64,000 bases of DNA from Prevotella nigrescens (GTDB lineage Bacteria > Bacteroidota > Bacteroidia > Bacteroidales > Bacteroidaceae), in NCBI RefSeq assembly GCF_031191185.1, contig NZ_CP133464.1, positions 310,001-374,000 of the forward strand, read 5' to 3'. A model generated the notes under the pieces. That model had not been told where the DNA came from, made no database searches, and saw nothing but the letters and a program-made list of their open reading frames with translations. This document shows positions 16,184 through 61,833 of this stretch, one piece after another. Positions within the stretch are counted from its first letter, which is position 1; the number at the start of each line of letters is the position of its first letter. Both the position numbers and the translations under genes were made by a program.

Positions 16184-16271
16184 GCAAAAGGGGCTGTTTT
16201 GAGTGGCAAAACAGCCTCTTTTCGTTCGTAAAACGGTGGGTTTTGACACGCAAGAACATGGCTGTTATAAT
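16184..16271. repeat. 22-bp A/T-tract repeat array, four units
   Basis: Four consecutive 22-bp units start at 16184, 16206, 16228 and 16250. Each has the pattern G(C/T)AAAA, seven bases, TTTT, five bases. Units 3 and 4 form the beginning of the left 93-bp direct repeat. Confidence 0.85.
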
Positions 16272-16324
16272 ATGTTGATGGTTAATACTTTAGATAAAAC
16301 AAAATGTTGCGAAAAACATTTACA
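16232..16324. repeat. Left copy of a 93-bp direct repeat flanking the Abi gene
   Basis: Bases 16232-16324 match 17593-17685 in the same orientation without gaps, with five mismatches by eye. Both copies begin AACGGTGG and end GCGAAAAACATTTACA. The interval between them contains only the Abi gene and its promoter. Confidence 0.93.
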
Positions 16325-16506
16325 TTGTTTCTGCTCATTTTCTATATCTATAATAAGGTGTGCAGAGATAACCACATTATAAACAAACCACCTTATTATT
16401 CATCGAAAGGCGAACTACAAGTTTATCCTTTCGATTGATTGAAAGTAGAAAACAGAATGTATAGAAGCAATTATTCAGTATTTCGATTAATTTTAATGGT
16501 ATTTAT

Positions 16507-16537
16507 TTTGTAGAAACAATATTTATATGTACTTTTG
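16507..16537 (+). promoter_or_regulatory. Promoter of the Abi family gene
   Basis: TTTG (16507-16510), 19 bp, then TACTTTTG (16530-16537) is a consensus promoter inside the segment bounded by the direct repeats. The leader to the ATG at 16638 is about 95 nt. Confidence 0.65.
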
Positions 16538-16637
16538 TAAAAAGAAAGATAGTTGCGAGATTATCGCACTTCAATCATAACAGTACTCGCTTGGCATACC
16601 GTAAGATCTGCTGGCGGGTCATTTTTTTACCTATTTT

Positions 16638-17564
16638 ATGAGCCATAAAAAACCACGTTCTGTTGAAGAACAAATAGGAATTTTGAAACAAAGAGGTATG
16701 ACATTCAGAAACGAAGGGTCTGCCCATATCCTATTAAAAAATGTCAGTTATTACCGCTTAAAAAGCTATTGGTGGGATATGCAGCAAGATAAGACAGAGC
16801 ATATTTTCTATAAAGGTTCTTGCTTTGAAGACGTAATGGCACGCTACTTGTTCGATAAAGAGTTGCGACTTGTTCTGTTTGATGCGATAGAAACCATAGA
16901 AATTGCTTTGCGCACAAAGATGATTTATTACCTTTCTCTTTCATTTGGTGGTCTATTTTATACAGATAGAAGTATTTTTGTAGATGAAGACAGGCACAAA
17001 AAGCACTTAGGAGAATTGATGAAAGAATTTATGCGTAGCTGTGAAATATTTGCGAAAGACTACAAGAAGAAGTATGGAATATGGGAAAAAGGTGAGATTG
17101 TAGGTCTGGTACAGCAGCCGGAAGCATGGATTATATTCGAAACGGCAACATTCGGAACACTTTCAAAGATGTATAAAAATCTTCAACACCAACTGCCAGA
17201 AAAGGCAAAAATAGCCAAAGACTTTAATCTTAACAAGCATAATGAACTTGCAAGCTGGCTCGAAGCAATATCGTACTTGAGGAATATTGTAGCTCATCAT
17301 TCCAGAATATGGAGCAGGAATATGGTAAAACGACCGATGGAAATTAAAAAACCTATAGGTAAATGGTTGAAAGGACAACTTACGGAAGATGCAAAAAAGA
17401 GGCCATACCTTATTATTACAGCTATGCTTTATCTGTGCAATGCCATTGGAATGGGAGAAAAATATAAGGAAAAGATTGTTACTTTAATCAAAAACAATCC
17501 CCAAATATCAATATATAAAATTGGTTTTCCTATGGATTGGTTCGATGAAGACATTTGGAAGTAG
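16638..17564 (+). CDS. Abi_2/AbiD-AbiF family abortive infection protein with HEPN-type motif
   Basis: 308 residues. The N-terminus (SVEEQIGILKQRGMTF, then NVSYYRLKSYWWDM) is typical of the Abi_2 family (AbiD/AbiF of lactococci), which is linked to phage exclusion. The segment YLRNIVAHHSRIW gives RX4H at residues 215-220, the catalytic signature of HEPN ribonucleases. By family it probably aborts growth of infected cells by RNA cleavage, but this is not shown here. The gene is AT-rich compared with its neighbours, carries its own promoter and is flanked by 93-bp direct repeats, so it looks like a single-gene acquired cargo. No partner antitoxin gene is visible next to it. Confidence 0.88.
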   Translation: MSHKKPRSVEEQIGILKQRGMTFRNEGSAHILLKNVSYYRLKSYWWDMQQDKTEHIFYKGSCFEDVMARYLFDKELRLVLFDAIETIEIALRTKMIYYLSLSFGGLFYTDRSIFVDEDRHKKHLGELMKEFMRSCEIFAKDYKKKYGIWEKGEIVGLVQQPEAWIIFETATFGTLSKMYKNLQHQLPEKAKIAKDFNLNKHNELASWLEAISYLRNIVAHHSRIWSRNMVKRPMEIKKPIGKWLKGQLTEDAKKRPYLIITAMLYLCNAIGMGEKYKEKIVTLIKNNPQISIYKIGFPMDWFDEDIWK

Positions 17565-17588
17565 AAAAGGGATATATGCTGTTGTATG

Positions 17589-17632
17589 TTAGAACGGTGG
17601 GGTTTGACACGCAAAAACATGGCTGTTATAAT
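17589..17632. repeat. Two 22-bp A/T-tract units within the right direct repeat
   Basis: Units at 17589 and 17611 correspond to units 3 and 4 of the array at 16184. They mark the shared start of the two 93-bp repeats. Confidence 0.7.
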
Positions 17633-17685
17633 GTGTTGATGGCTAATACTTTAGACAAAACAAAATGTTGCGAAAAACATTTACA
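17593..17685. repeat. Right copy of the 93-bp direct repeat flanking the Abi gene
   Basis: It matches 16232-16324 over 93 bp with five substitutions and begins 28 bp after the Abi stop codon. A short open frame through this copy has a counterpart in the other copy only through the repeat and is not taken as a gene. Confidence 0.93.
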
Positions 17686-17720
17686 ACTTTATAACATGCT
17701 CTTTGTCTGCAATAGGCGGA

Positions 17721-17780
17721 TAAAAAATGCAGTAGAAACAAGGAGAAAGGCATTTATAGCTTTCGTTATCTCTACTGCAT
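17721..17780 (-). terminator. Terminator of the hmu operon
   Basis: On the minus strand ATGCAGTAGA (17771-17780) pairs with TCTACTGCAT (17727-17736). An inner GAAAG/CTTTC stem lies inside, and a run of T residues follows at once (17721-17727). It lies about 100 bp past the hmuV stop codon. Confidence 0.8.
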
Positions 17781-17886
17781 AGTAAGATGTTAACAAGGTT
17801 TTGCAGAGAGTATAAGGCTTCGGGCAGACCAACATTGTGGCTGTTTGCCATACGTGTTGCCCTATTACCCTATTCCAATTGCACGG

Positions 17887-18222
17887 CTATTCGTCCGGGA
17901 TATAAATAATTTCGCCATTCTCAAGCTGGTAGGCTGTGCCCACTCGCTTGCCCTTATTGCTCGATTTGGCGTCCTGATTTTTCGACGGAGTGTAGCGTTC
18001 TATCTGCTTTCCCTTCTTCGAAATAATCTCCATGTTCTGCTTTCCGGGATTCTTTACCACGGTAAAGTCTTCCGTACTGAACATTTCTGTCATCTTATAG
18101 TGGGTAACAAGCGCCACCATAAGTGCCACAGCAAACACCATTGCCGCATCGAAGAGGTTGCTGACAACGCTCATTGGGTCGTCGTCCTCGTCGTGCCCAA
18201 GTCTTATTTGTCGTCTTCTCAT
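17887..18222 (-). CDS. hmuV: HmuV-like DUF2149 membrane protein
   Basis: 111 residues with a basic start (MRRRQIRLGHDEDDDPMSVV), one membrane helix (NLFDAAMVFAVALMVALVTH, about 23-42) and a C-terminal soluble part ending ENGEIIYIPDE. DUF2149 proteins pair with MotA/TolQ/ExbB-type channels next to CobN-like genes; the layout resembles an ExbD/TolR partner. I place the start at 18222 rather than 18294 because ATG(18222-18220) overlaps the hmuU stop as ATGA. It is the last gene of hmuYRSTUV, followed by a terminator at 17721-17780. Confidence 0.85.
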   Translation of the reverse strand: MRRRQIRLGHDEDDDPMSVVSNLFDAAMVFAVALMVALVTHYKMTEMFSTEDFTVVKNPGKQNMEIISKKGKQIERYTPSKNQDAKSSNKGKRVGTAYQLENGEIIYIPDE

Positions 18223-18821
18223 AATTGTTTGTCGCGGTTTTCGTCCAACATATCGGCGATATAGTTCAGCATTCCCATGTCTCTGCGATACCAACGCTGC
18301 TTAACCGCCTTCACCACAAAGCCTATTCCACCGGCAAACAAGCCGATTACGGTGGTGGCAAACGCCACTTGCATGTTGTAAGCCATAGAAGCAATGTCGC
18401 CCGAAGACAAGCCAACGAGTGCCGGACCCATAGGAATGAGCGTGCCCATAAGCCCCAACATTGGTCCCATTTTGGTAAACATCTTCGGTGTTTCAAGCTC
18501 GCGTTCCACCAAACATTCGTATTCGTCGAGCAAGAAGGTAACTTTTGCAGGACTGTTACGGTTTTCCAACATCTTGGAAATGCAGGTTACAACGGGCAAT
18601 TTGCCTTTTGGCAGGTGGTCGGAAAGTGTATAAAGGTTGTCGGCAGTGAGCTGTTTCACCTCTTTTTGCAGCAATATTCCACTCTTGCGCATGGTGAGAT
18701 ACTGGCTGAAGAAGCCGCCCAAGAGCAGCAACGAACGTAAAAAGAAGAAGATAAGAATAAGGATTACGGGGACAAGAAGACCTGACGAAATCCAGTAAAG
18801 AATGTCTGTTATGTAATTCAT
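18219..18821 (-). CDS. hmuU: HmuU-like MotA/TolQ/ExbB proton channel family protein
   Basis: 200 residues with three membrane helices: one near the N-terminus (ILYWISSGLLVPVILILIFFFLRS) and two around 120-180 (MGPMLGLMGTLIPMGPALVG and VAFATTVIGLFAGGIGFVVK). The GLMGTLIPMG and TTVIGL segments are the conserved channel-lining part of ExbB/TolQ/MotA proteins. With HmuV it would form a proton-driven energiser, presumably working on HmuS or on transport across the envelope; that coupling is inferred from operon conservation. It overlaps hmuV by 4 bp. Confidence 0.87.
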   Translation of the reverse strand: MNYITDILYWISSGLLVPVILILIFFFLRSLLLLGGFFSQYLTMRKSGILLQKEVKQLTADNLYTLSDHLPKGKLPVVTCISKMLENRNSPAKVTFLLDEYECLVERELETPKMFTKMGPMLGLMGTLIPMGPALVGLSSGDIASMAYNMQVAFATTVIGLFAGGIGFVVKAVKQRWYRRDMGMLNYIADMLDENRDKQL

Positions 18822-18892
18822 AAGTTGTTATTGGTTTATATCTACGTTTATTTTAATTCATGCGGAAGTAGTTTTCGTACAGCAGGGGTACG

Positions 18893-19591
18893 TCATTCCA
18901 ATTGCTTCATCTGCCGTTTGGTGTGCCAACGTTGCCACAACATGCCCACGGCACCGAACACAACAACCAGCAGCAACGTACCTGCGAGTGCGCCAACATT
19001 GGTGCTGTCGGTTCCCACTACGGCTGTTTTGCCGTTCACTGTAGCCACAATGCCCAACAAGGCAATGAGCAAATTGCAGAGAAAAAGCAGCTCCAAGCGT
19101 AGGAAAGTCTCGGGAAGCAGACGTTTTATGGCGTATGTGAGCAGCAGGATAGCCACACAGAACACACCTCCAAGCGTCCAGGCGATGAGCGAAAAGTCTT
19201 CGCCGGGAAACACAAAGATGGTTTCCACGAGCAGTGCAAACAGTGTCGGCACTATCATGATGCCGGGAAAGAAACGCAAGAAAGCATACAGCCAGCGACT
19301 TTTACGTCCTACGTGTTCGCCCATCTCGGTGTTGGCAGCCAGCAAGCAGAACGCCATCGACAGCAGAACGTCTATGTTCAGCACCACGGAAATGTCGCGG
19401 ACCAAGTCGGTATTAGCCAGCCATGCAGCTATTTCTGTGGACGATTGCAAGATGGCAACGTGCCAGGCGAAACCCGTAAAAACCATTGCAGCCACCGCAG
19501 TAATACTAAGTTGCAAAGTATTTACGAAAGTCTGTTTCAGCAAAAAGCTGAAACAGACAAGCATAAATAGTATGTATACTATGGTTTCCAT
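18893..19591 (-). CDS. hmuT: HmuT-like integral membrane protein of the haem operon
   Basis: 232 residues, almost all hydrophobic, with about six membrane helices (for example YILFMLVCFSFLLK at 6-19 and VGALAGTLLLVVVFGAVGML near 202-221) and a basic C-terminal tail (WQRWHTKRQMKQLE). I recognise it from its position between the CobN-like gene and the ExbB-like gene rather than from a catalytic motif. It starts 7 bp after the hmuS stop. Its role in haem handling is unknown; a membrane partner of HmuS is the natural guess. Confidence 0.7.
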   Translation of the reverse strand: METIVYILFMLVCFSFLLKQTFVNTLQLSITAVAAMVFTGFAWHVAILQSSTEIAAWLANTDLVRDISVVLNIDVLLSMAFCLLAANTEMGEHVGRKSRWLYAFLRFFPGIMIVPTLFALLVETIFVFPGEDFSLIAWTLGGVFCVAILLLTYAIKRLLPETFLRLELLFLCNLLIALLGIVATVNGKTAVVGTDSTNVGALAGTLLLVVVFGAVGMLWQRWHTKRQMKQLE

Positions 19592-19598
19592 TATTCAT

Positions 19599-22500
19599 TT
19601 ATTCTGCATTCGTATTACGACGGCGGCGCACAATGAATACTACTAAAGCTACAAAGAGCAACACTGCACCACCAATAACGATGCTCCTGCTGAGCAGCGG
19701 TGAATGTTTTTCTACCTTTTGCGACATGTCTTCGCGTTTCATGACTGTACCCTTGTCGGCATTGGCAGCCGAATTGCGTACCTGTTCTATCTGTTGCTGA
19801 TAGACTTTGCCCTCGTTTGGTGTAACCTTAGAGGCTATGAACTTGCGCAATTTGGCATTGTCGGTAACGAAGGCAGAGCCTGACGGCTTGTATTTCTTAA
19901 CCAACTCTACATGCAACTTGGCAATGTCGGCAACCTGTTGAGGCGTTGCTTTCCACATTCCCTTGCGCACTGTTTCGAGCATAACGGCAGTAATCTGTTG
20001 CAAGGCAGCCGGATTTTTCTGTTCAAAGAATGTTTTTGTGCCCAGTTTGTACTTGTCTTGCACGTACACACGGTATATATCGTCCCACAATTCCTTGTCT
20101 ATCGCCTTCGGTTTCATGACGTTCCAGCCGTAAGTATTCTCTACAATCTCTGCAAAACCGCCTGCTGCGCTTGCTCCACCTTTCATTTTCTCCTTTATAT
20201 ATACTGGGTTCAGAATGGTGGTACGGCTCTCTACGCCTATGGCTTCCTTCACTTCTTGCATGCGAACGTTGTGCCTATTGCGATAATCGCTGAGGTAAGC
20301 ATCAGGGTCTTTGCCCGTTACCTGACGCACAGCGAGGTTCAATCCGCCCATAAACTCGTAGACATGGTCTAAGCTCAAAGCCCCCCACGTGTTGCTCTGG
20401 CGGGGTTGCACCACGACATCGGTGCGGGTCAGAGCCGCCTCGAAGGCATATTTGTTGTACTGTTCCCAGTCTTTCTCGCTGCCATAGAAGGTTCCCATGT
20501 TGTTAATATAGGTGTTTGCGATGTCCTCTCGCTTCTCCCAGCGGTCGCCACTCATAACCATTGCCTGTATGCCGGTGCCATAATTGCCGTTCATACCGCC
20601 GAAGATGCGTTGCGAAGCCATCTTGCGTGCCTCCTTGGGCGATACTCCTTTCTCGGTGAGATGGCGTTCTGCGGTCTTCACACCAATGGAAACTTCGTTC
20701 TCAAAAACGTCGTCTTTGGCGTTGGCAGCCATCTCCACAGCCTTGTTTATGAGGAAAAGGCGCGATGCAGCAAGGTCTCTGAGCTGTCCGGAGGTCTGTA
20801 CTACAACGTCGATACGCTTCCGTCCCAACTCCTTAGAGGGGATTAGGCGCAGGTCGCTGACCCTTCCGAACGAGTCGCGTATGGGTTCTACACCCAGCAT
20901 GTATAGCACTTGGGCGATGGTAGCACCCTCGGTTTCTATAAATTCGCCACTCCACAGCGTGTAACTTACCTTGTGTGGCAGTGCCCCATTGTGGCGTTGC
21001 TTGTACAAATCGATGGTGTTCTGTGCCAACTGCTTGCCCTTTTCCCATGCAGCTTCGCTTGGTGTAGACTCTGCATTTATGCCAAACAGGTTGCGTCCGG
21101 TAGGCAATGTGTTCGGATTAACTATAGGGTCGCCGCCGGGAGAGGGGGCTGTGTAGCCTCCATTCATGGCGTTGATAATGCTTTCGAGCTCGTTTTGCGG
21201 ACTAATAAGAAGGTATTGCTTGTACTTTGCAATGTTTTTGAGGGTTCGTTCAAGCTCTCTTACAGCAAAAGCAAAGTCTTTTTCTTCTTTAGAATACGAC
21301 TTCTTCTTGTCTTTCATCATGGCTGCCATGCCTGCCATTCCCTTCTTAGGCATTCCTTGCATAGCCTTTCCGCCCATTGTTTTGCCCATCTGTGGCATTG
21401 GTTTGCCCTTTGTTGTGGGGTGTCCGCCCATGTTTTCAGGTTTCTTTCCCATACCTGTTGGCATCTTTCCAGGGTGTCCCATTGGTGGCATACCCCCTTG
21501 TTTGGCGTGCATTGGCTTGCCTTTCGGCATTCCTTTGCCCATTCCTGGAGGCATCTTGCCCATACCTTTTGGCATTCCCATGCCCATTGGCATACCTTTG
21601 CCGCCCTTGCCTTTCTTGCCCATAGAGCCCATTCCCATCATCATTTTCATCATGTCCGATGGGGCAGTAAGGTCTTCGTATATCTTGTGGGCACGCTGAA
21701 GGTCAGCTGGAGACAGGTGTCCTACCTTGCAGACAAAGGCGTCTGACACTTCTGCCGAACTGTTTATGAGCGACTGAACCAATGCTTTGGCAGGGTAAAG
21801 GTAGCGGCTGTTGAACTCTGAACGGTGTTTCAGTAAGGCTTCGGTGGCTTTCTTGCGTACCTTGTCGAGCGTAAACAGCGAGTAAGCCACAGGGTCTGTG
21901 CACATTTCAAGTACGCTACTGTTGATGCGTGCAGGCTCGTAAGGCACGCCTAAAGTATAAAGCTGTCCCGTAATCTTCTCGTTTGAGAGTTCCTCGGCAA
22001 AGTTATCGATGCGCGTTATCTCCTCTTCCGTGTACGGACGGGTAAGTATGCTGTCCAAACCAAGGTCGCGATGGAAGCCCAAACGCACCACCATGGCTTT
22101 TATGGCAAGCGATGTTTGCTGCAGCAAGGCCTTGTTTTTGCCAATGTTCTGGTTGTAAAGTTTCAGTTTAGAGGTCAGTTCGGCGTAAGCTCCACGCATT
22201 CCGCTCTCCATGAAAGGTGGTGTAAGATACGACTGTAGTCCGGCATACGAACGGCGTTTGGCTATCAGGCCTTCGCCAACATTGCCGATAGTGTAAAGAT
22301 AGAAGTGCGGTAATGCACCCACCAAGCGGTCGGGCCAGTCGAGATTACTTAGGGCAGACTGTTTCTTTGGGGTAAATTCGAGGCTGCCGTGTGTGCCAAA
22401 ATGTATCAGCACATCGGCTTTGAAACCATACTGTGTCCATAAATACGAGGCAATATATGTATGCGGTGGTGCTGCATTCGTGCCGTGAACGATTTGGAAA

Positions 22501-24008: not shown

Positions 24009-24075
24009 TCTGTTCGTATTTTTGTTCTTAATGAATGGTTGGGCAGGATAATATTGTTTATTTGCCAAGTGCAAA

Positions 24076-24149
24076 AAGACTCTGACACTATGGGGTAAAA
24101 ACATTATCACTATGGTGATAAAAGGTTATCACCATAGTGTCAAAGTCTT
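24076..24149. repeat. Inverted repeat between hmuR and hmuS
   Basis: A left arm starting AAGACTCTGACACTATGG (24076) pairs with a right arm ending CCATAGTGTCAAAGTCTT (24149), with about three mismatches. The loop holds a further near-palindrome TTATCACTATGGTGATAA. It could be an mRNA-stabilising or attenuating hairpin, or an operator; sequence alone does not decide. Confidence 0.8.
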
Positions 24150-24211
24150 GTTGCCATATAATTGATACATTATAGTTGGGTTGCACAGTTTCTGCAATGA
24201 TGCAAAGGAGA

Positions 24212-26619: not shown

Positions 26620-26645
26620 GTTTTGTGCAGACAGGGTTGGCTGTG

Positions 26646-27396: not shown

Positions 27397-27708
27397 TAAA
27401 GAAAGAAAACCTTGCACAATACTTATTTTTCGTGATTTTATTTTAAAAAAATCTGCGTGTCTTACCTACTTTAAAGTACTGTTTTCTTGAAAAACGACCG
27501 ATATTACAAAATCGATACTTAATAATTATGATAAAACACAATGTTGCTGATACTTAGTTTTTTCTATCTCCAGCGTGCCACAATATTGTTTGGACATTTA
27601 GAACCGAATGTCGGCATGGCACAAAATACGTGGTTATTTCCATTAAAAAATATGTAAAAATACTTTGAAAGAGTGGCAGCCTTCTTGCAGTCTCATTATC
27701 AGCACTTT

Positions 27709-27818
27709 ACAAAATGGCATCTTTCGCATTGCAAAAACGCCTGTCTTACACGGTGGAACAGTGCCTTTTGCATTGCAAAACAATGGCTTTTGAAGCCCAA
27801 AGCGGCTTTTGTCGTCTT
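27709..27818. repeat. 22-bp A/T-tract repeat array, five units
   Basis: Units start at 27709, 27731, 27753, 27775 and 27797. The clearest unit begins GCAAAACAATGGCTTTTG. Spacing is exactly 22 bp throughout. Confidence 0.87.
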
Positions 27819-27860
27819 GCATCAGAATTATTTTTACAAGATGATTTTGGGAAGACTTTA

Positions 27861-30704: not shown

Positions 30705-30911
30705 AAAAGCAATGCTACAAGCAGGTTCTTTTGTTGCAACCAGCAGGACAGGAACCTGGCATGTGGCATTTTTTATATTGTAAGAAAAGGCGAGCCGAAT
30801 TGTAGCGACGCCTAATGGAAAACACGTCAAGGTGGGCATTGCATCTTTATTCAGACCATCTTTTTTCTTGCAAGAATTATTCATGAAATCCCGTCCGTAG
30901 GTTTTTACAAC

Positions 30912-30999
30912 ACCAAACAGACTTTTTTACGTTCCCAAAGAGCCTGTTTTGCCGTGTAAAAGCGGCTGTTTTGCAACGCCAAATGATTGCTTTTGTAAG
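30912..30999. repeat. 22-bp A/T-tract repeat array, four units
   Basis: Units start at 30912, 30934, 30956 and 30978. Unit 3 begins GTAAAAGCGGCTGTTTTGC. Confidence 0.86.
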
Positions 31000-31111
31000 C
31001 TGTTGGCAATTAAGTAGTTGTGTAATATGTATAATTATGTGGGAAATAACGCCACAAACGTCTTCTTGTATTGGTATTTTGCATTGATATAAAAAAACTT
31101 TACGCAAAATG

Positions 31112-40169: not shown

Positions 40170-40412
40170 CATCTTTTTAATGGAAAACGAAAACCGAAAA
40201 AGAGTTTTTTCTTGTTGAAAGAATAAGATTTGCGATGTTGTTGTCAGGCTAAACAAAAGGAGCGATACGGTCTTGCGCATTGCCTGATGATGTAAATGTA
40301 TTCTGCAAGATGCGAGGAGAGAATGTAATTTGAAGAGGAATGAATAGCGGAAAATGCACAAAAGAAGGTACGCAAGATGGCTGCTGCGTAACAGCTTAAT
40401 GACCAGTGCATT

Positions 40413-40500
40413 ACAAAAGAGCTTGCCTTGCGCTTCAAAACAGGCTCTTTTACAGTGTGAAACAGACCCTTTTAGGTTGCAAAACAGTGCCTCTTGTGCG
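40413..40500. repeat. 22-bp A/T-tract repeat array, four units
   Basis: Units start at 40413, 40435, 40457 and 40479. Unit 2 begins TCAAAACAGGCTCTTTTAC. Confidence 0.86.
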
Positions 40501-45912: not shown

Positions 45913-46007
45913 TGAATATATAAAAATACCTTTTTGTATATATGCAAGTATATGTATGAAAATGCCTTTGTGTAACTTTCAATAGGTCAGCAGGTTAGAA
46001 AGGCGTC

Positions 46008-46095
46008 CCAAAAGGGGCTGTCTTGCAGTGCAAAAGAGCCTGTTTTGTTGCCCAAAAGGGTGGATTTTGGAACGTGGAAACGGTTATCTTGAAAT
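46008..46095. repeat. 22-bp A/T-tract repeat array, four units
   Basis: Units start at 46008, 46030, 46052 and 46074. Unit 2 begins GCAAAAGAGCCTGTTTTG. Confidence 0.86.
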
Positions 46096-46165
46096 GTAAT
46101 TGCATATATATGAAAAAGGACCAACATAGTGCAAGTGTTACGTTGCAGTATGTCAGCCCTGTTGG

Positions 46166-53031: not shown

Positions 53032-53059
53032 CCGCCATTGCTGTAAAGTGCGATGGCGG
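53032..53059 (+). terminator. Terminator of the M3 peptidase gene
   Basis: CCGCCAT (53032-53038) pairs with ATGGCGG (53053-53059), followed by TTTCTCGTTTC. Confidence 0.68.
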
Positions 53060-53438
53060 TTTCTCGTTTCTGTAAAAATCTACTTGTTACAATGCTATAA
53101 ACATTCTTTTATACATTATTTGTAATTCTCCAATTGCTTATCAATCCTTAATTGGCGTTTGATAGTTAGTAACAATCAATATAATCGGAAGCATACGAAC
53201 AAATAAATGTAACAGGGTTGGATAATCATCGCTTAAAAAAGATTCCGTAAAAATGTTATTGCTCATTATGAATGCATGCATTGTTTAACGTCAAATAAGT
53301 GGAATTATACCTATGGAACAGAAAAAGGGTGCAATAAAACAATGGATAATGATACCTATAAATAAGCATATGGATTACTGTATAGGTCGTGTTTTGCAAA
53401 CTGTAGATTGCATTTTAAGGTACTTTGAAATAGGTTTT

Positions 53439-53456
53439 ATACCTAAAAGTAGGTAT
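53439..53456. promoter_or_regulatory. ATACCTA/TAGGTAT palindrome upstream of pflB
   Basis: ATACCTA-AAAG-TAGGTAT is a perfect 7-bp inverted repeat about 100 bp upstream of the pflB -7 box. Direct copies of ATACCTA lie at 53307 and 53352. Possible operator for a regulator of PFL; the protein is unknown. Confidence 0.5.
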
Positions 53457-53529
53457 TGAGATAGCGAAAAATAGTCGTTTTTGCACATCTTACAAAACAT
53501 GTGCAGTGCAAAATACCGACAAGTAAGTA

Positions 53530-53560
53530 TTGTAATAAATATGGAAAGAAATTACCTTTG
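53530..53560 (+). promoter_or_regulatory. Promoter of pflB
   Basis: TTG at 53530-53532, then 20 bp, TACCTTTG at 53553-53560. The leader to the ATG at 53646 is about 80 nt. Confidence 0.65.
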
Positions 53561-53645
53561 CACCAGAAATAAACAGAGAATTGATAATGGGCTTAATGTA
53601 ATACTATGCGTTTAGCCTTATAATTTACTAAATTACAATACTATT

Positions 53646-55892
53646 ATGAGAGAAGAATGGAGAGGCTTTTCAGGCACAAAGTGGCTTGACGAAGTAAACA
53701 TGCGCGAGTTTATCCAGGCAAACTACACTGGCTACGACGGCAACGAGGACTTCCTTGCAGGCCCTACGGAAGCAACAGACAAACTCTGGGGCAGACTGAA
53801 AGAACTTCAGAAAGAAGAGCGTGCCAATGGAGGCGTACTCGATATGGAGACCGAAGTGGTGTCAAGTGCCACTGCTTACGGACCAGGATACATCGACGAA
53901 AGTCTTAAAAACCTCGAAAAGGTAGTAGGTTTGCAGACCGACAAGCCGCTGAAACGTGCCTTCATGCCTTACGGTGGCATCAAGATGGCAGAGCAGGCAT
54001 GCACCACTTATGGCTATCAACCATCTGAAAAGCTTCACGAAATTTTCACGAAATATTGCAAGACCCACAACGACGGTGTGTTCGATGCATATACCGATGA
54101 AATGAAAATAGTACGCCACAACCATATTCTAACTGGTCTTCCAGATACATACGGGCGTGGTCGTATCGTGGGCGACTATCGCCGTGTTGCTCTTTACGGC
54201 GTAGATTTCCTTATAAACGAGAAGAAAAAAGACCTGAAGAACTGTGGCGATGGCGTAATGACGGAGGAAATCATTCGTCTGCGCGAGGAAATTGCAATGC
54301 AAATCAAGGCTTTGAACGAACTCAAGGCAATGGCACAAATTTACGGATTCGATATTTCTAATCCGGCAAAGAACGCCCGGGAAGCTGTACAATGGCTCTA
54401 CTTCGGCTATCTTTCAGCCATTAAGACACAGAATGGAGCAGCCATGTCGGTGGGCAGAATATCTACATTCCTCGACATTTACATCAATCGTGACATACAG
54501 GAAGGTACATTGACCGAGGCAGAAGCACAGGAACTCATCGACCATATCGTCATGAAGTTCCGCATGGTCAAGTTCGCTCGCATTCCATCGTACAACCAAT
54601 TGTTCTCGGGAGACCCCGTCTGGGCAACCCTCGAAGTAGCTGGTTTGGGTATGGACGGACGTTCTATGGTTACAAAAACCGACTTCCGCTTCCTCCATAC
54701 ACTCGAAAATATGGGACCATCGCCCGAACCTAACCTCACAGTGTTGTACTCTCCAGCGCTGCCGGAAGGCTTTAAGAAGTACGCAGCAAAGATTTCTGTG
54801 AAGACAAGCTCTATCCAATACGAGAACGATGAGGTAATGAGACCCATCTGGGGAGACGATTATTCAATCTGCTGCTGTGTGTCTGCCACACAGACAGGTA
54901 AGGAAATGCAGTTCTTCGGAGCACGTGCCAACCTTGCAAAGTGCCTTACTTACGCCATCAGTGGCGGTGTAGACTACAAGACACGTGAGCAATGTGGTCC
55001 GGCATATCGCCCAATCGAAGGCGACATAGTAACCTATGAAGAGTTTATGCCTAAGTTTATGGATATGATGGAATGGCTTGCCGACATTTACGTAAATACC
55101 CTTAATCTTATTCATTACATGCACGACAAGTACTTCTATGAGGCGGCAGAGCTTGCCCTTATAGACACCGACGTGCGCCGAACATTTGCTACCGGCATCG
55201 CAGGATTTAGCCATGTGGTAGACTCTATCAGTGCTATTAAGTATGCAAAGGTTAAGATTGTACGCGATGAAACGGGCTTCCCAATCGACTTCGAGACCGA
55301 AGGCGAGTTCCCACGCTATGGCAACGACGACGAAAGAGCCGACGAAATAGCTGTCTGGTTGCTCAAGACGTTCATGACAATGATAAGGAAACACCATACC
55401 TATCGCAACTCTGAACCCACCACAAGTATACTTACCATCACATCGAATGTGGTATATGGCAAGTACACACCAGCCATGCCGGACGGTCGTCCTGCCGGTG
55501 CTCCATTGTCGCCGGGTGCAAATCCATCGTACGGAGCAGAGCAAAATGGCTTGTTGGCATCGCTCAACTCTGTTGCGAAACTGCCTTACGAGTATGCGCT
55601 CGATGGTATTTCAAACACGCAAACCATTGCTCCAAGCACATTGGGAAAGACCGAAGAGGAACGCACAGACACGCTTGTAGGTGTGATGGACGGTTATTTC
55701 AGCCGTGGCGCACACCACTTAAACGTGAATGTTTTCGGTGTAGAGAAACTTATCGATGCTATGGAGCACCCTGAAAAGGAGGAGTATGCAAACTTCACAA
55801 TCCGTGTCAGTGGCTACGCTGTCAAGTTTATCGACCTCACAAGGGAGCAGCAAGAAGACGTAATAGCACGTCGCGCACATGGCAAGATGTAA
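53646..55892 (+). CDS. pflB: Formate C-acetyltransferase (pyruvate formate-lyase)
   Basis: 748 residues. The active-site cysteines are in [15 protein letters not shown] (Cys409-411, of which two correspond to the catalytic Cys-Cys). The glycyl-radical loop is [10 protein letters not shown] with Gly723. The N-terminus ([20 protein letters not shown]) is standard. It converts pyruvate and CoA to acetyl-CoA and formate during anaerobic growth. Its activase gene pflA follows after 168 bp on the same strand. Confidence 0.97.
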
Positions 55893-56060
55893 GCAACGAG
55901 CTTTGTAAACAAGACGTATTTTATCAATATATAGTTAGTAATTTGAATAGAAATAATTGGGCTGACGCGTTTGGTCCAATTATTTTTTTACATCAAACCG
56001 TCACAATCGACATATAAATTGGTCGATATTGTACACCAGACAAATAACTACAAGGACATC

Positions 56061-56852
56061 ATGGCAGAACAAATACCTACAATAGAGTATGATACTGAGA
56101 ACATGGAACGTGCCGACGGCAAACCACTGGCAAAGGTACACTCCATCGAATCGTTCGGTTCGGTAGATGGACCGGGTATCCGTTTCATCGTTTTTCTAAA
56201 GGGTTGCACCATGCGTTGCCGTTATTGTCATAACCCGGACACATGGGACAGCCATTCCGACAAGCTGATGACAGCAGACGAACTGCTGGCGAAAGCCGTT
56301 CGCTTTAGAAGCTATTGGGGCACGAAGGGCGGCATAACGGTGAGTGGGGGAGAGGCTTTGCTGCAGATAGACTTCCTCATTGAGTTCTTCCGCAAGGCAA
56401 AGGCGCAGGGCATAAATACCTGTCTCGACACGTCGGCACAGCCTTTCCGGCGCACAGGAGTTTTCTTTGAGAAGTTCAAAGAACTGATGAAATATACCGA
56501 TTTGTTGCTTTTCGACATCAAGCACATTGATTCTGATGAGCATAAAAAGCTGACTGGCTGGCCCAACGACAACATTTTGGACTGTGCACGATACTTGTCT
56601 GAAATTGGCAAACCCATCTGGATACGGCACGTTCTTGTGCCTACGATTACCGATAACGACGAGTATCTGCACCGTTTGCGTGCATTTATAGCCTCGCTGG
56701 ACAACGTTGAAAAGATTGAAGTGCTGCCCTATCACACGCTGGGAATATATAAATGGGAGAACCTGCACATTCCTTACACGTTGAAAGGAATACCCGAGCC
56801 TACGCCCGAACAGGTACAACATGCACAACAAATATTGGAAGGCAAGGCGTAA
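56061..56852 (+). CDS. pflA: Pyruvate formate-lyase-activating enzyme (radical SAM)
   Basis: 263 residues from the ATG at 56061. The radical-SAM cluster motif CxxxCxxC is Cys49-Cys53-Cys56 in FLKGCTMRCRYCHNPDTW. The SAM-binding GGE-type motif appears as VSGGEALLQ, and LDTSAQPFRR and LLFDIKHID follow. It installs the glycyl radical on PflB. A longer frame begins at 55971 but its extra 30 residues (VQLFFYIKPSQSTYK...) are not family-like. The 43-bp palindrome lies 30 bp past the stop. Confidence 0.95.
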   Translation: MAEQIPTIEYDTENMERADGKPLAKVHSIESFGSVDGPGIRFIVFLKGCTMRCRYCHNPDTWDSHSDKLMTADELLAKAVRFRSYWGTKGGITVSGGEALLQIDFLIEFFRKAKAQGINTCLDTSAQPFRRTGVFFEKFKELMKYTDLLLFDIKHIDSDEHKKLTGWPNDNILDCARYLSEIGKPIWIRHVLVPTITDNDEYLHRLRAFIASLDNVEKIEVLPYHTLGIYKWENLHIPYTLKGIPEPTPEQVQHAQQILEGKA

Positions 56853-56881
56853 AGGGGTGCTTTGGGGTGGTGGTTTTGATA

Positions 56882-56924
56882 GGTGTCCTAGGAATACTAG
56901 GGCCCCTAGTATTCCTAGGACACC
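56882..56924. repeat. 43-bp perfect palindrome, CTAG-rich, between pflA and the MaoC gene
   Basis: A 21-bp left arm (56882-56902, beginning GGTGTCCTAGG) is separated by a single C (56903) from its exact reverse complement (56904-56924, ending CCTAGGACACC). It contains four CTAG tetramers, including two CCTAGG sites. No T-run follows on either strand. Confidence 0.95.
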
Positions 56925-56970
56925 CTATGATATTTATAGCCCCCTACCTTTTTTAGCTTTTCATTTACGC

Positions 56971-57435
56971 TTATTCAAAGTAATACAAGAAGGTGGCAAT
57001 GCCTTCCAGGGCAGGTTTGCGCTCACCTTCAATCTCTATTTGGAACTTGATGCCCGCCCTGCAGATGCCCCGCAAGTTCTCTATGCTGTCGAGCGAAGAC
57101 ACCAGACGAATGTGCGAACCTGCGAGTACAGGACGCCCGAAGCGCATTTTGTCCATGCCATAGTTCACCATCATCTTCAGATTATGCACCTCAATGATTT
57201 CGCTCCACATGTGTGGCAGCAGCGAAAGCGTAAGATATCCGTGTGCGATAGTACTCTTGTAGGCACTTTCTTTTGCTGCCCGTGCGGTGTCTACATGTAT
57301 CCATTGATGGTCTAAAGTGGCGTCGGCAAAAAGATTGATGCGTTCCTGACTAACCTCCAACCACTGACTTTCACCGAGTTTCTTGCCCAAATAGCTTGCC
57401 AACTCTTCGTAGTTGTTCACTATTAGTTTATCCAT
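56971..57435 (-). CDS. MaoC-like hotdog-fold dehydratase
   Basis: 154 residues. The hydratase motif is visible as FADATLDHQWIHVDTARAAK (about 32-51: Asp and His of the R-specific enoyl-CoA hydratase site), followed by TIAHGYLTLSLLPHMWSEII and VLAGSHIRL. MaoC proteins hydrate (R)-enoyl-thioesters; the native substrate is unknown, and short single-domain copies are common in Bacteroidota. Convergent with pflA across the palindrome. Promoter at 57466-57473. Confidence 0.9.
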   Translation of the reverse strand: MDKLIVNNYEELASYLGKKLGESQWLEVSQERINLFADATLDHQWIHVDTARAAKESAYKSTIAHGYLTLSLLPHMWSEIIEVHNLKMMVNYGMDKMRFGRPVLAGSHIRLVSSLDSIENLRGICRAGIKFQIEIEGERKPALEGIATFLYYFE

Positions 57436-57465
57436 TGTTTTCCTTTCATCTTTGTTTTGTGCCTA

Positions 57466-57473
57466 CAAAGATA
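57466..57473 (-). promoter_or_regulatory. -7 promoter element of the MaoC gene
   Basis: TATCTTTG on the minus strand, 31 bp before the ATG at 57435. Confidence 0.6.
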
Positions 57474-57628
57474 CTAAGTTTCTTCTTAATTCCACCACTT
57501 TTGTCTTGCTCTTTCTTCTTAAAATTGCACAAAATATGTGTTAAGTGTGCAGTCTAAAGCGATGAATTGCAAGTCCACCCATTCGTTTCCTCTTCCTCGT
57601 AACGTATCAGAACCAACCCACAAGCAGC

Positions 57629-57653
57629 TGTAGAGGCGTGATTTTTCATGTTC
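57629..57653. repeat. Dispersed 25-bp repeat, copy 1
   Basis: Begins TGTAGAGGCGTGATTT; matches 62065-62089 with two differences. Here the CGTGAT/ATCACG stem is imperfect. Confidence 0.75.
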
Positions 57654-57725
57654 CTAATCCCCTAAAAACAGTAGCGTTTGATGGTTATTGAGGGCTTTCC
57701 ACAAGATTAAACTCCATATAATGCA

Positions 57726-57756
57726 AAAGCGCAAGACCATCACAGTCTCACGCTTT
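57726..57756 (-). terminator. Hairpin at the end of the 34-codon ORF
   Basis: On the minus strand AAAGCG-TG-AGAC pairs with GTCT-TG-CGCTTT around a 7-base loop, ending in TTTTGC. It overlaps the ORF stop codon and would end a transcript of about 275 nt starting near 58000. Confidence 0.5.
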
Positions 57757-57844
57757 CGTTAGTCCAAATAGGCTGTCTGCCTATTCTAACCTCTGCTTGA
57801 TTTGTAGGTTCGCGCCTCTCGGCGTTCCCCTCAAAATCTCGCAT
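57740..57844 (-). CDS. 34-codon small ORF with structured leader, or a non-coding RNA
   Basis: From the ATG at 57844 the frame encodes 34 residues beginning MRDFEGNAERREPTNQAEVR and ending NESVRL, hydrophilic and Arg/Glu-rich. An AAAGGA ribosome-binding site lies 10 bp upstream. The promoter TACCTTTG is at 58004-58011 on the minus strand, giving a leader of about 155 nt with an AAACTAAT/ATTAGTTT hairpin (57885-57903). Within the ORF, CGCC-GAGA-GGCG (57813-57824) is a GNRA-tetraloop hairpin, which suggests the RNA itself may be functional. From memory, very similar short predicted proteins occur in other Prevotella; I could not verify this. Protein or structured RNA remain open. Confidence 0.5.
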   Translation of the reverse strand: MRDFEGNAERREPTNQAEVRIGRQPIWTNESVRL

Positions 57845-58003
57845 CGTTTGTTATCCTTTACTCAATCTTAATTTATATTACCTTAAACTAATCCTATTAG
57901 TTTGAACAATCTCCTTTGTTCTTCTTAAATAAAACAACTAAAAACCTAAATCTATTACTATTAACCTAAACAATCTAATAACCTTTTTGTCTTAATGACA
58001 GTG

Positions 58004-58011
58004 CAAAGGTA
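58004..58011 (-). promoter_or_regulatory. -7 promoter element of the mini-transcript
   Basis: TACCTTTGC on the minus strand, a strong -7 match with no annotated gene at a normal distance downstream. Confidence 0.6.
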
Positions 58012-58178
58012 CACAGCTTTGCCGATACTGAAAAATATTTCGACATGTTTTTTTCGATGTGAACGGCTTTCTTGACATGCGTCAATTCTTTAATGTGTCC
58101 GTAAACGTGTGGTCTTATTATTCTAACAGATATTGTCTTTTGTACAAGGAATGGGAGGACGAGGGGTGAAGACGAAAC

Positions 58179-58219
58179 AACAGATTGCAGACACTGTGTG
58201 TACGGCCGTGCAATCTGTT
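58179..58219 (-). terminator. Hairpin downstream of the pncC-like gene
   Basis: AACAGATTGCA (58179-58189) and TGCAATCTGTT (58209-58219) form a perfect 11-bp stem with a 19-base loop, 120 bp beyond the gene. Only a weak T-rich tail follows, so it may be a processing signal instead. Confidence 0.5.
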
Positions 58220-58341
58220 ATTGTCTGGAAGACATGCAACCGCTTTGTGCGGGAAAATGTCGAAGGACAGAGGTTGTAAAAGCTATGTTTTCTCAAGCTC
58301 TCATGTCTGGTTCTGCATGTGCTTCGCTCTTGTTGTCTGCC

Positions 58342-58842
58342 CTATTTATCGCTAAGTTTCTCTTTTAGGAAGTCGAGCATTAAGCGTATTGCCTTATTGG
58401 TTGCAATGGCAAGATTAATGTCCCGGCCGAAGTTTTCGGTGAGTTTGAATGTCCGTATGTCGTCTTTCGAGCCGTAACCAATCCATATTGTGCCTACGGG
58501 AATGTCGGTTGTGCCACCGCCCGGACCCGCTATGCCGGTAACAGAAATGGCAAAATCCACCTGCAGAGCCTCGATGGCACCGCGCGCCATCTGTTTTGCC
58601 ACCTCTTCGCTAACGGCTGTATGTTCTTGCAAAGTATCGGCAGAAACACCCAATAAGCGTATTTTCACCTCGTCGGTGTACGACACTATGCCTCCCTTGA
58701 AGTAGTTTGAGGCTCCCGGAATGGCTATGATGGTCTCGCTGATGCGCCCACCTGTGCAGCTCTCGGCAGTTCCGAGCGAATAGCCCGATGCATAAATTAG
58801 GTCGCCAATCTGGCGCGATAATATCTTACTTTCAAATTCCAT
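58342..58842 (-). CDS. CinA C-terminal/PncC family nicotinamide-nucleotide amidohydrolase
   Basis: 166 residues, just the amidohydrolase domain without the N-terminal CinA part. Motifs: [21 protein letters not shown] near the start, [20 protein letters not shown], and [20 protein letters not shown]. The PncC family hydrolyses nicotinamide mononucleotide to nicotinate mononucleotide for NAD recycling. It starts 12 bp after tsaD on the same strand. Confidence 0.93.
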
Positions 58843-58854
58843 AGTCGTTAATTC

Positions 58855-59889
58855 CTATTCAAATGTAACTTTACTGAAAGCCGGAAGGTCGATTGAAGCA
58901 AACTTGCCGTCTCTGTATTTAAACGTTCCGACGCTGGCAATCATGGCAGCATTGTCGGTAGTATAACTAAATTTCGGTATATAAATGGTCCACCCGAAGC
59001 GGGCAGCGTGGTCGTGAAAGGCGTTGCGCAGACCGTTGTTGGCTGACACGCCCCCTGCTACGGCAACGTGTCTGATGCCCGTGTCCTTAACAGCCTTGCG
59101 CAGTTTCTTCATCAAAATGTCTACGATGGTAAACTCAAGGCTCGCTGCGAGGTCGTTCTTGTGGTGTTCTATGAAGTCGGGATCGTCCTGAATCCACTCG
59201 CGGAGGTTGTAAAGGAACGACGTTTTCAGTCCTGAGAACGAGTAATCGTAGCCCGCTACGTTGGGTTCGGCAAACTTATAGGCTTTAGGATTGCCGTTTC
59301 TGGCAAGCTTGTCAATGATTGGTCCGCCCGGATAGCCTAATCCCATCACCTTTGAACATTTGTCTATGGCTTCGCCGGCAGCGTCGTCTATTGTCTGTCC
59401 CAACACTTCCATGTCGTTATAGGCATTCACCTTTACTATCTGGGAGTTGCCACCGGAAACCAAAAGGCAGATGAAGGGGAAGGGAGGCTGGCTGTTGTCG
59501 TCGTCGTTTTCCTTAATAAAGTGGGCTAAGACGTGTCCTTGCAGGTGGTTGACGTCTATGAGCGGAATGCCCAAAGCCCGTGCAAAACCTTTGGCAAAGC
59601 TTACTCCCACGAGCAGACTGCCCATTAAACCCGGTCCGCGTGTAAAGGCAACGGCAGACAATTGTTCCTTTGTTATGCCGGCACGCTTAATGGCTTGGTC
59701 TACAACAGGCACTATATTTTGTTGGTGTGCCCGTGAGGCCAGTTCCGGAACGACACCTCCGTAAGCCTTGTGGACATCTTGTGAGGCGGTAACATTGCTG
59801 AGAATTACACCATTTCGCAGTACTGCTGCACTGGTATCGTCGCAACTGCTCTCAATACCAAGTATGTAAATATCCTCGTCTTTCTTCAT
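58855..59889 (-). CDS. tsaD: tRNA N6-adenosine threonylcarbamoyltransferase
   Basis: 344 residues of the Kae1/TsaD family. GIESSCDDTSAAVL opens the ASKHA fold, the metal ligands His115 and His119 are in VNHLQGHVLAHF, and ASRAHQQNIVPVV and LLVSGGNSQIV follow. It transfers the threonylcarbamoyl group to A37 of ANN-decoding tRNAs with TsaB and TsaE. It lies between map and the pncC-like gene on the same strand. Confidence 0.97.
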   Translation of the reverse strand: MKKDEDIYILGIESSCDDTSAAVLRNGVILSNVTASQDVHKAYGGVVPELASRAHQQNIVPVVDQAIKRAGITKEQLSAVAFTRGPGLMGSLLVGVSFAKGFARALGIPLIDVNHLQGHVLAHFIKENDDDNSQPPFPFICLLVSGGNSQIVKVNAYNDMEVLGQTIDDAAGEAIDKCSKVMGLGYPGGPIIDKLARNGNPKAYKFAEPNVAGYDYSFSGLKTSFLYNLREWIQDDPDFIEHHKNDLAASLEFTIVDILMKKLRKAVKDTGIRHVAVAGGVSANNGLRNAFHDHAARFGWTIYIPKFSYTTDNAAMIASVGTFKYRDGKFASIDLPAFSKVTFE

Positions 59890-59962
59890 TATTGTTCTCT
59901 TCCTGTGCTGTTGGCACTCTGCTTATGTAGCCTTTCTACATTGCAGTTTAGTGGTCTTACGC

Positions 59963-60823
59963 TTAGTGTGTGAGTATTTCTACTCCGCTATCAGTCATTA
60001 AGAAGGTGTGTTCCCACTGTGCAGAGGGTAGCTCGTCGCCTGTTATCACCTCCCAGCCGTATGGGTCGTCGGCATCGATAAAGACTTTCCACGTACCTTG
60101 ATTAATCATTGGCTCGATGGTGAACACCATTCCAGGCACCAGCAACATGCCCGTTCCCCTGTGTCCGTAGTGCAAAACTTCAGGCTCTTCGTGGAACTCC
60201 AAGCCCACGCCATGCCCACAAAGGTCGCGCACGACGCCGTATCCGTACTTCTCGGCATGCTTCTGTATGGCGTGCCCAATGTCTCCGACGAACGAGTAAG
60301 GCTTGGCTGCAGCCGCGCCAATCTCGAGGCATTCCTTGGTAACACGCACCAATTGTTCTTTCTCGGGGGTAGTTTTTCCAATGATGAACATGCGGCTTGC
60401 ATCGGCAAAATAGCCGTCCACAATGCACGTCATGTCCACATTTACAATGTCGCCCTCCTGCAGAACGTCTTCCTTCTTGGGTATTCCGTGGCATACCACC
60501 TCGTTTATGCTGGTGCAGACACTTTTTGGATAGCCCTCGTAGTTAAGGCATGCAGGTGTGGCATTGTGCTCTTTGCAGAACGCCATACATATATCGTCTA
60601 TCTCTTGTGTATTCATTCCGGCGTGAATAGCATCTGCCACAGCGTCTAAGCAGCCTGTGTTTACAACGCCTGCACGGCGTATTCCTTCTATCTGTTCCGG
60701 GGTTTTAATAAGGTTTCGAGTTGGTACGAGCTTTCCTTTCTTCTCGAATTCCATTATCCTTCTATCCATTTCGGTGGGTTCTTGTCCTGGTAGACAGTGC
60801 CACCTTCTCTTCTTCAATATCAT
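59963..60823 (-). CDS. map: Type I methionine aminopeptidase
   Basis: 286 residues from the ATG at 60823. Metal ligands are in VNVDMTCIVDGYFADASRMF, GHGVGLEFHEEPEVLHYG and VFTIEPMIN. It removes the initiator Met from new proteins. The N-terminal extension (ILKKRRWHCLPGQEPTEMD) before TRNLIKTPEQIEGIRRAG is longer than in E. coli and contains a lone Cys. A longer frame from 60877 is excluded by the promoter at 60847-60878. Confidence 0.96.
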   Translation of the reverse strand: MILKKRRWHCLPGQEPTEMDRRIMEFEKKGKLVPTRNLIKTPEQIEGIRRAGVVNTGCLDAVADAIHAGMNTQEIDDICMAFCKEHNATPACLNYEGYPKSVCTSINEVVCHGIPKKEDVLQEGDIVNVDMTCIVDGYFADASRMFIIGKTTPEKEQLVRVTKECLEIGAAAAKPYSFVGDIGHAIQKHAEKYGYGVVRDLCGHGVGLEFHEEPEVLHYGHRGTGMLLVPGMVFTIEPMINQGTWKVFIDADDPYGWEVITGDELPSAQWEHTFLMTDSGVEILTH

Positions 60824-60846
60824 TGTTACCTTTTTAAACTTCTTTG

Positions 60847-60878
60847 CAAAAGTACTAATAATAAATAGAAATGACAAA
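60847..60878 (-). promoter_or_regulatory. Promoter of map-tsaD-pncC-like operon
   Basis: On the minus strand TTTG (60875-60878), 20 bp, TACTTTTG (60847-60854): a full consensus, 24 bp upstream of the map ATG at 60823. Confidence 0.75.
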
Positions 60879-61058
60879 GGAATTAACTCATTTTTATCCC
60901 TTTCGCATTATAAGGGTGCTTGAGCTGTTTTGTTGAAATAACAGAATGCTGTCTGCTTGCCATTCGTATAATTTTTTGAAAAAACATGCGTTGTCTTGCA
61001 AAAGAATACTTGATTTAAATCAATTAAATGCAAATAAATGAATATTTTTGGTTCATTA

Positions 61059-61090
61059 TTTGTGCTTTTAAGTATTTATTGTTATCTTTG
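61059..61090 (+). promoter_or_regulatory. Promoter with no downstream gene
   Basis: TTTG (61059-61062), 20 bp, TATCTTTG (61083-61090). Transcription would begin near 61097 and reach the terminator at 61647-61672. Confidence 0.65.
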
Positions 61091-61260
61091 CTAACACTTA
61101 AAGGTAGAAAAAACGTTACTTTCGTTGAGTCATTTTGGTAGAGATTGCGTATTTAGGCACTATATTTTGAATTTTCTCAGGAGCAGTGATGCTCTACAAT
61201 TGTTTATATTTAAGTTTATAAAAGTTTTCTTCAGTTAAAGTTATAGATTAGGTAGAAGAC

Positions 61261-61277
61261 GATTGTTTCAGGATAAC
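61261..61277 (+). repeat. 17-bp inverted repeat, left arm
   Basis: GATTGTTTCAGGATAAC; exact reverse complement at 61592-61608. Confidence 0.95.
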
Positions 61278-61591
61278 TTTTCTGTTTCATGCCACTTATT
61301 TTTTCACAATATGAAAGATGTGAAGTTCCGTTTCGTCTGTCTTTGTTTCCCAATTGGTTTTCTTTTCAAACACCATTCATATCCTTGTTAAAATTCATTC
61401 AGTCCCTTTTCAGATGCCATTCAAATGCTATTTGAATGCAAACCTGCCATTCCCTATATTCGGCGGAAACCTGATAGAGAGTCGGAAACTGCGATAATTG
61501 TTATCGCACACTATTCTAAAATTAGTTAAATCAGGAGTATTTTGTATAAAAATATTTTGATATTAGATAAAAATAGCGTACATTTACGCTC

Positions 61592-61608
61592 GTTATCCTG
61601 AAACAATC
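61592..61608 (-). repeat. 17-bp inverted repeat, right arm
   Basis: GTTATCCTGAAACAATC; exact reverse complement of 61261-61277. Confidence 0.95.
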
Positions 61609-61646
61609 TTATGTGCCTTACTAACTAATACCTAACTTAGAACAGA

Positions 61647-61672
61647 AACGACGGACTGAGAAGCCCGTCGTT
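61647..61672 (+). terminator. Terminator after the gene-free transcript
   Basis: AACGACGG (61647-61654) pairs with CCGTCGTT (61665-61672), loop of 10, followed by TTCTTTTG. Confidence 0.78.
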
Positions 61673-61745
61673 TTCTTTTGTCTGAAAATCTTTTGACAAT
61701 TTACAGACAAGCACAACAGTATTGTAAAGATAATTCAGAAGAAAG

Positions 61746-61833
61746 GCAACGATTGCGTTTTTGCGTTGCAAAAACGGCTCTTTTCCATCGTAAAACCCAT
61801 GCTTTTACCGTGCGAAAGAGCCATTTTTGAAGT
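61746..61833. repeat. 22-bp A/T-tract repeat array, four units
   Basis: Units start at 61746, 61768, 61790 and 61812. Unit 2 begins GCAAAAACGGCTCTTTTCC. Confidence 0.84.

Follow-up and report, generated by a model that had tools for sequence, protein, structure and literature searches.

A stretch of 64,000 nucleotides of the Prevotella nigrescens genome (contig NZ_CP133464.1, positions 310,001 to 374,000; hereafter the window, from genome G000) contains patches of a 22-bp unit with one A-tract and one T-tract, noticed in a first-pass annotation made from the letters alone. The patches proved to be the core of an intergenic repeat of ~190 bp, in line with the dispersed element family that this annotation had offered as one possibility. 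The units stand on an exact lattice, lie between genes, recur across the genus with group-specific words, are in many cases accompanied by an IHF-type palindrome at fixed offsets, and in most genomes tested are spaced along the chromosome more evenly than chance. Overall, the repeat itself is known (we take it to be PINSR), but its interior had not been described, its family is much wider, and it follows a spacing rule. Our preferred reading, held tentatively and at somewhat less than an even chance, is that the arrays are docking sites where nucleoid proteins assemble, organising the chromosome into domains.

The lattice was examined in samples of 400-464 kb from five genomes, G000 among them with 464 kb. 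Three-unit arrays of the form AAAA-N7-TTTT-N7 numbered 48 in the G000 sample, where 48 other spacings gave 0.4 on average. Across five genomes, the arrays with 7/7 spacing numbered 48, 45, 40, 38, and 14, while the other 48 spacings averaged 0.08-0.83. The highest count at another spacing was 19, at 6/8 in G168, and these are probably 7/7 arrays read off by one. The lack of a genome-wide excess, or an irregular unit spacing, had been named beforehand as counting against the repeat; an excess was found, and the spacing was regular. At the threshold used, four units per array were present in 28/50 arrays of G000, 38/46 of G084, 32/40 of G039 and 9/16 of G010, the exception being G168, with five units in 22/30 arrays. 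None of 30 third-order Markov surrogates of the window attained 24 of 32 tract letters across four units, a level that 18 positions of the window itself reach or exceed; the patches peak at 28-30.

Two 7-bp words, designated X (between the A-tract and the T-tract) and Y (between units), fill the lattice. Across six species, information content was 1.5-1.7 bits at tract positions, a figure that is partly circular because arrays were selected by their tracts, 0.4-1.2 bits in X words and 0.2-0.8 bits in Y words. In all of the six species but G010, the tract letters are weakest at the outer edges of the unit, its first A and last T, so that the dyad falls on the X word. Judged by its letters, the unit is a palindromic AAA-N7-TTT site that recurs every 22 bp. 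The expectation that such tracts bend DNA was borne out on average, and by prediction only: from wedge parameters, mean curvature over 88 bp was 63-82 degrees, compared to 38-44 degrees for dinucleotide shuffles and 29-39 degrees for DNA 2 kb away. It did not hold array by array, as single arrays exceeded the 95th percentile of shuffles in just 0-62% of cases by species (0/16 in G010). An 11-bp period is commonly associated with negatively supercoiled DNA (PMC4132750).

A profile search with a 199-position model recovered 53 copies of the element from the 464 kb of G000, 20 of them with both ends, and 49 from 400 kb of G084, where 38 were full-length and closely similar. The G084 layout is TTTTGTAAAGATAATTC, about 30 bp, four units, GTTGATAA..GTTA and then GAAAAATATTTACAC; outside these ends, similarity declines over roughly 10-35 bp. 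PINSR was described by Naito et al. in 2015 as a 188-bp repeat of Prevotella intermedia, specific to the P. intermedia/nigrescens group, intergenic and present in many copies in two-chromosome genomes, with its function left open; a copy downstream of tnaA was reported for strain ATCC 25611 (PMC4755523). The present element agrees in its length of about 188 bp, high copy number, and intergenic place, and in G084 a copy lies about 235 bp past the end of the tnaA match (E 6.7e-43), while none was found beside tnaA in G000 or G017 within the available flanks. We therefore take it to be PINSR on these grounds, rather than by comparison with the printed consensus. It differs in that the available text of the PINSR paper describes no 22-bp units, IHF-type site or even spacing (the terms '22-bp' and 'evenly' do not occur there), and calls PINSR group-specific, whereas the lattice is genus-wide, with other words (PMC4755523). 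Among 60 genomes, the element model matched best in G000 and G017 (E about 1e-44), the remaining 58 giving 6e-19 or weaker; matches at 1e-3 in 40/60 suggest that weaker relatives extend beyond the intermedia/nigrescens group. In the literature consulted, chiefly openly readable papers, no 22-bp arrays of this kind were found, and PINSR was described by Naito et al. only. What is new beyond that paper is the lattice interior, the genus-wide spread, the IHF-containing palindrome and the even spacing.

Two further repeats were seen around these elements. A small module rich in CTAGAA/TTCTAG stands just left of several G084 and G017 elements (e.g. contig C2 of G084, around 364150); two loci that lack the element have the module as well. 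In G168, many arrays are embedded in a longer repeat, also dispersed and about 400-860 bp in size, whose flanks are conserved and in which no large gene was called (loci L092-L111).

The wider distribution was surveyed with a three-unit pattern allowing at most three mismatches. Of 200 genomes searched in the genus, 57 carried the lattice, G000 included, as did 36 of the 86 with completeness of 90% or more and contamination of 5% or less. In a draw of 151 genomes from the family, it occurred in 6/10 of the genus and in 3/141 of other genera, with one or two matches each; a reversed-pattern control was of little use, as it partly matches the same lattice. The 7-bp words differ by species group, examples being CAGGCTC, CCTACGC, and CAATAGG in G000, GCATAGC in G039, GCATAGC, CCTATGC, and CATCATC in G168, GATGACC in G010, and CGTGCCG in G058. 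An exact three-unit array was also seen in four viral contigs of IMG/VR (L252-L255), where it may be phage or host DNA; a phage origin of the arrays was considered and set aside, the exact pattern being limited there to these 4 stretches.

Evenness along the chromosome was assessed against a null in which elements were placed at random in called intergenic gaps, weighted by gap length and one per gap, in 2000 draws. Arrays were more even than this null in 5/6 genomes, with coefficients of variation (CV) of 0.27-0.69. Elements occurred every 8.0 kb in G000 (42 elements, CV 0.59 vs 0.89 for the null), 13.6 kb in G168 (25 elements, 0.44 vs 0.84), 9.7 kb in G039 (13 elements, 0.27 vs 0.77) and 26 kb in G010 (16 elements, 0.45 vs 0.94), and for these four the observed CV was reached by no draw, to the four decimals shown. 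G084 had 78 elements every 6.0 kb (0.69 vs 0.82, P 0.03). Under a uniform null, five pooled contigs of G039 gave 35 arrays with a mean spacing of 10.5 kb and a CV of 0.32, and evenness was stable at thresholds of 20-22, apart from G010 at 22. The contigs of the relatives were selected for holding hits, a selection that does not by itself even out spacing. A minimum distance alone does not account for the spacing in G039, G000 or G084; in G039, the 30 spacings, with a mean of 10.5 kb and a minimum of 5.1 kb, were more regular than such a rule would give (P 0.008). We know of no other bacterial interspersed repeats that are evenly spaced.

Beside many arrays, in seven genomes, an imperfect palindrome YAA-N4-TTGATWATCAA-N4-TTR stands at modal offsets from the array end. 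Each of its halves is the IHF consensus WATCAANNNNTTR (PMC10380432), the right half being weaker in the group of the window. The exact consensus occurred at most 50 bp from the end of 50/199 arrays and in 12/1791 control windows, and at one mismatch the counts were 116/199 and 164/1791; arrays within 600 bp of the end of a stretch were dropped, and these counts refer to the sequence consensus only. At the modal offsets, the palindrome (at least 7 of 11 core letters) accompanied 20/50 arrays in G000, 33/45 in G084, 5/9 in G017, 6/8 in G058, 4/4 in G053, 26/40 in G039, and 13/16 in G010. By arithmetic from these offsets, its centre lies 21-22 bp or 33 bp from that of the last unit, about two or three helical turns. 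Genes of the HU/IHF family were considered as a predictor of arrays and set aside as uninformative: the family occurs in 200/200 genomes, so its presence says nothing about them.

The palindrome at fixed offsets, together with the even spacing, favours the docking of nucleoid proteins. A dimeric protein would bind each AAA-N7-TTT palindrome, with successive dimers on one face of the DNA, since unit centres lie two 11-bp turns apart, and a protein of the HU/IHF family would bind and bend the neighbouring palindrome. The resulting complex might serve as the anchor of a DNA loop, or of a supercoiling domain, roughly 6-26 kb in size. Arrays may have spread by copying inside each genome, which would explain the words shared within a genome, while function would set their spacing. 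A more specific form of this proposal, which we regard as rather unlikely, is a genus-wide chromosome ruler with one phased array per typical length (about 6-26 kb by species, and about 10 kb with a CV of 0.3 in G039). Each array would be a nucleoprotein anchor, recognised by a DNA-binding protein that co-evolves rapidly with it and acts along with an IHF/HU-type bend; spacing rule and lattice would thereby be conserved while words diverge.

Several results weigh against docking. Even spacing was weak or failed in G017 (12 elements, P 0.10, intergenic-gap null), in G010 at the strictest threshold of 22 (P 0.26, uniform null), and in G058, where arrays were few (4-8; P 0.09, 0.36, and 0.02). 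A minimum distance alone suffices for the spacing in G168 (P 0.11) and G010 (P 0.58). G168 has evenly spaced arrays but no IHF-type site beyond about the control rate (1/28 exact, 5/28 at one mismatch), and, as 143/200 genomes of the genus are without the lattice at the search threshold, the genus does not depend on it. Finally, 14 comparison rows of orthologous intergenic loci, drawn from 12 elements, were shared in 3 cases and absent in 11. Such gain and loss of array loci between related species would be expected of a mobile element. When the flanks were tested more strictly, shared cases alone were returned (2/2 and 1/1; in a second run 1 and 1), and between G000 and G084 orthology was rarely assessable, given flank identity of about 82% and little synteny.

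A non-autonomous mobile element with target immunity follows docking closely; it is possible, if less probable, and both could hold. In that case a transposase or recombinase acting in trans would use the units and the IHF-type site as its end complex; target immunity, or recombinational loss of closely spaced copies, would account for the even spacing. Copying of the elements is evident: the G084 copies look young, with unrelated flanks, and copying would be expected to leave words common within a species, as observed. The Correia element of Neisseria, likewise a short, mostly intergenic repeat (155 bp), also contains an internal IHF site, although no tandem unit array is described for it in the available text (PMC2229807). 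The element ends, TGTAAA...TTTACA, are imperfect inverted repeats: the terminal motifs TGTAAAGATAATTC and GAAAAATATTTACA match at 11/14 letters (compared by hand from the G084 consensus), against the statement of Naito et al., in the text available, that PINSR lacks terminal inverted repeats (PMC4755523). Identical 5-bp sequences occurred at the exact ends in 3/38 G084 copies, with 2% expected from all pairings, but there is no general target duplication, as at most 4/38 copies share 4 bp, and none 6 bp or more, at any junction offset. Similarity also fades beyond the element ends rather than stopping sharply, one 'empty' locus retains the left terminus, and the tract lattice has been kept across species with different words. 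Y1_Tnp (PF01797), the sole mobiliser searched for, had no match in G000, G017, G039, G058, G012, G027, G003 or G048, and mobilisation by RAYT was accordingly rejected for G000; the family is present in other array-bearing genomes, e.g. G010, G053, G004, and G006.

With a hexamer gene caller, arrays fell inside genes in 0/50, 0/46, 1/40, 1/30, and 0/16 cases in five genomes in which 77-89% of the DNA was called coding, and the first of these counts, from the sampled part of G000, upholds the intergenic location noted for the patches. An earlier caller, since replaced, had given false small open reading frames (ORFs) over arrays (17/50 in G000). An alternative that we consider improbable is that the arrays are bidirectional terminators or RNA hairpin elements, with UUUU at the end of stems formed between units whose words are complementary. 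Gene 3' ends are nearer to arrays than 5' ends in 4/5 genomes (medians), yet arrays occur between convergent, tandem, and divergent genes alike, which speaks against a terminator role; divergent gaps hold 9/49 in G000 and, favoured there, 13/27 in G168 (edge and in-gene cases excluded). Inverted word pairs (at least 6/7) were present in 27/50 arrays of G000 (54%), compared to 24% with permuted words (reached by 0/1000) and 41% with random word flips (reached by 22/1000), and in 35/38 G084 copies unit 1 is complementary (at least 6/7) to unit 2 or 3. G039, however, prefers direct repeats of adjacent words. Hairpin stability beyond that of the lattice itself was not consistent in five species, its sign varying against permuted and flipped words, respectively (z -2.5/-0.9 in G000, -0.5/-3.6 in G084, +0.8/+2.8 in G039, +4.1/+1.2 in G168, and -3.2/+1.7 in G010). 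At gathering score, Rfam had no match at arrays, with 0 in the window and just two tRNAs in five loci. RNA structure as a shared function of the arrays was rejected on the inconsistent folding and the direct repeats of G039.

Least probable of all are unselected arrays whose complementary or repeated words arose passively, by template switching and slippage in palindromic units: the X words of units 1-3 vary in order among the closely similar G084 copies, and words repeat directly in G039 and inversely in G000, but 7/7 spacing and tract letters are retained across species with different words, and both the even spacing and the fixed-offset palindrome count against it. In the full-length G084 copies, Y words look position-specific while the order of X words varies.

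Among known systems, iteron replication origins such as R6K gamma have 22-bp units adjoining an IHF site, but the arrays described here are many-copy, chromosomal, and intergenic. To our knowledge, even spacing has not been reported for the bacterial interspersed mosaic elements (BIMEs) of E. coli. BIMEs (BIME-1/RIB) are similarly intergenic, high-copy repeats of palindromic units, which interact with IHF and have been suggested to organise the chromosome (PMC2817692); they differ in having two opposed REPs in place of tandem 22-bp units, and no Y1 transposase was found in G000. The corresponding BIME-1-like trait here, an IHF consensus beside palindromic units, is present by sequence consensus only. 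Interspersed repeats are common in bacteria. If the arrays set domain boundaries, chromosome organisation could be approached through defined sequences in a major genus of the human mouth and gut. A testable function is also offered for PINSR, open since 2015.

In the window, a patch unit was counted when at least 6 of 8 tract letters matched, and arrays were placed by tract-letter count, elements by nhmmer and IHF-type sites by mismatches to WATCAANNNNTTR:

16135-16328, plus strand: full-length PINSR-like element (119 bits, model 7-199)
16186-16266: four-unit 22-bp array
16268-16280, minus strand: IHF-type site, 1 mismatch
17590-17708, plus strand: right half of an element (two units and right end), identical to 16229-16343 in 104/119 columns; nhmmer match at 17593-17689 (48.5 bits, model 103-199)
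27649-27843, minus strand: full-length element (124 bits, model 5-199)
27697-27709, plus strand: IHF-type site directed into the array, 1 mismatch
27711-27791: four-unit array, then a weaker fifth unit
30865-31039, plus strand: element (104 bits, model 6-182)
30914-30994: four-unit array
31008-31020, plus strand: IHF-type site, 1 mismatch
40374-40497, minus strand: element, left end unmatched (86 bits, model 55-178)
40415-40495: four-unit array, with no IHF-type site at one mismatch or fewer within 60 bp
45962-46105, minus strand: element (69 bits, model 20-174)
46010-46068: three-unit array, with a weaker unit to about 46090 and no IHF-type site at one mismatch or fewer within 60 bp
61717-61912, plus strand: full-length element (127 bits, model 4-199)
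61748-61850: array, five units by threshold
61852-61876: 25-bp imperfect palindrome of two back-to-back IHF-type motifs (61852-61864 minus, 61864-61876 plus), 1 mismatch each

Each of the six patches, and the half patch too, was located where it had first been reported. Four units were counted at 16186, 27711, 30914, and 40415 and five at 61748; the patch at 46010 has three and one weaker unit. The two units placed at 17589 are present but belong to the right half of an element. Tandem Repeats Finder (TRF) at a score of at least 30 listed none of the patches, which agrees with the view that their units differ among themselves more than those of young tandem repeats. None of the six arrays (0/6) has an exact IHF-type site, and 2/6 are without one even at one mismatch.

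A cobW-type gene, taken as its longest ORF (14768-16249, minus strand), extends into the array at 16186, but its main Pfam match begins at residue 89, and weak ones at residue 75 or later. An Abi gene at 16638-17564 (PF07751 Abi_2; AbiD by PADLOC) is bracketed by the near-duplicate right halves of the element (16229-17708), as if inserted at the repeat or duplicated together with it. A separate 22-bp tandem repeat with another consensus (TRF, 2.5 copies; 24086-24139) lies at the 5' end of a minus-strand ORF of 1503 amino acids.

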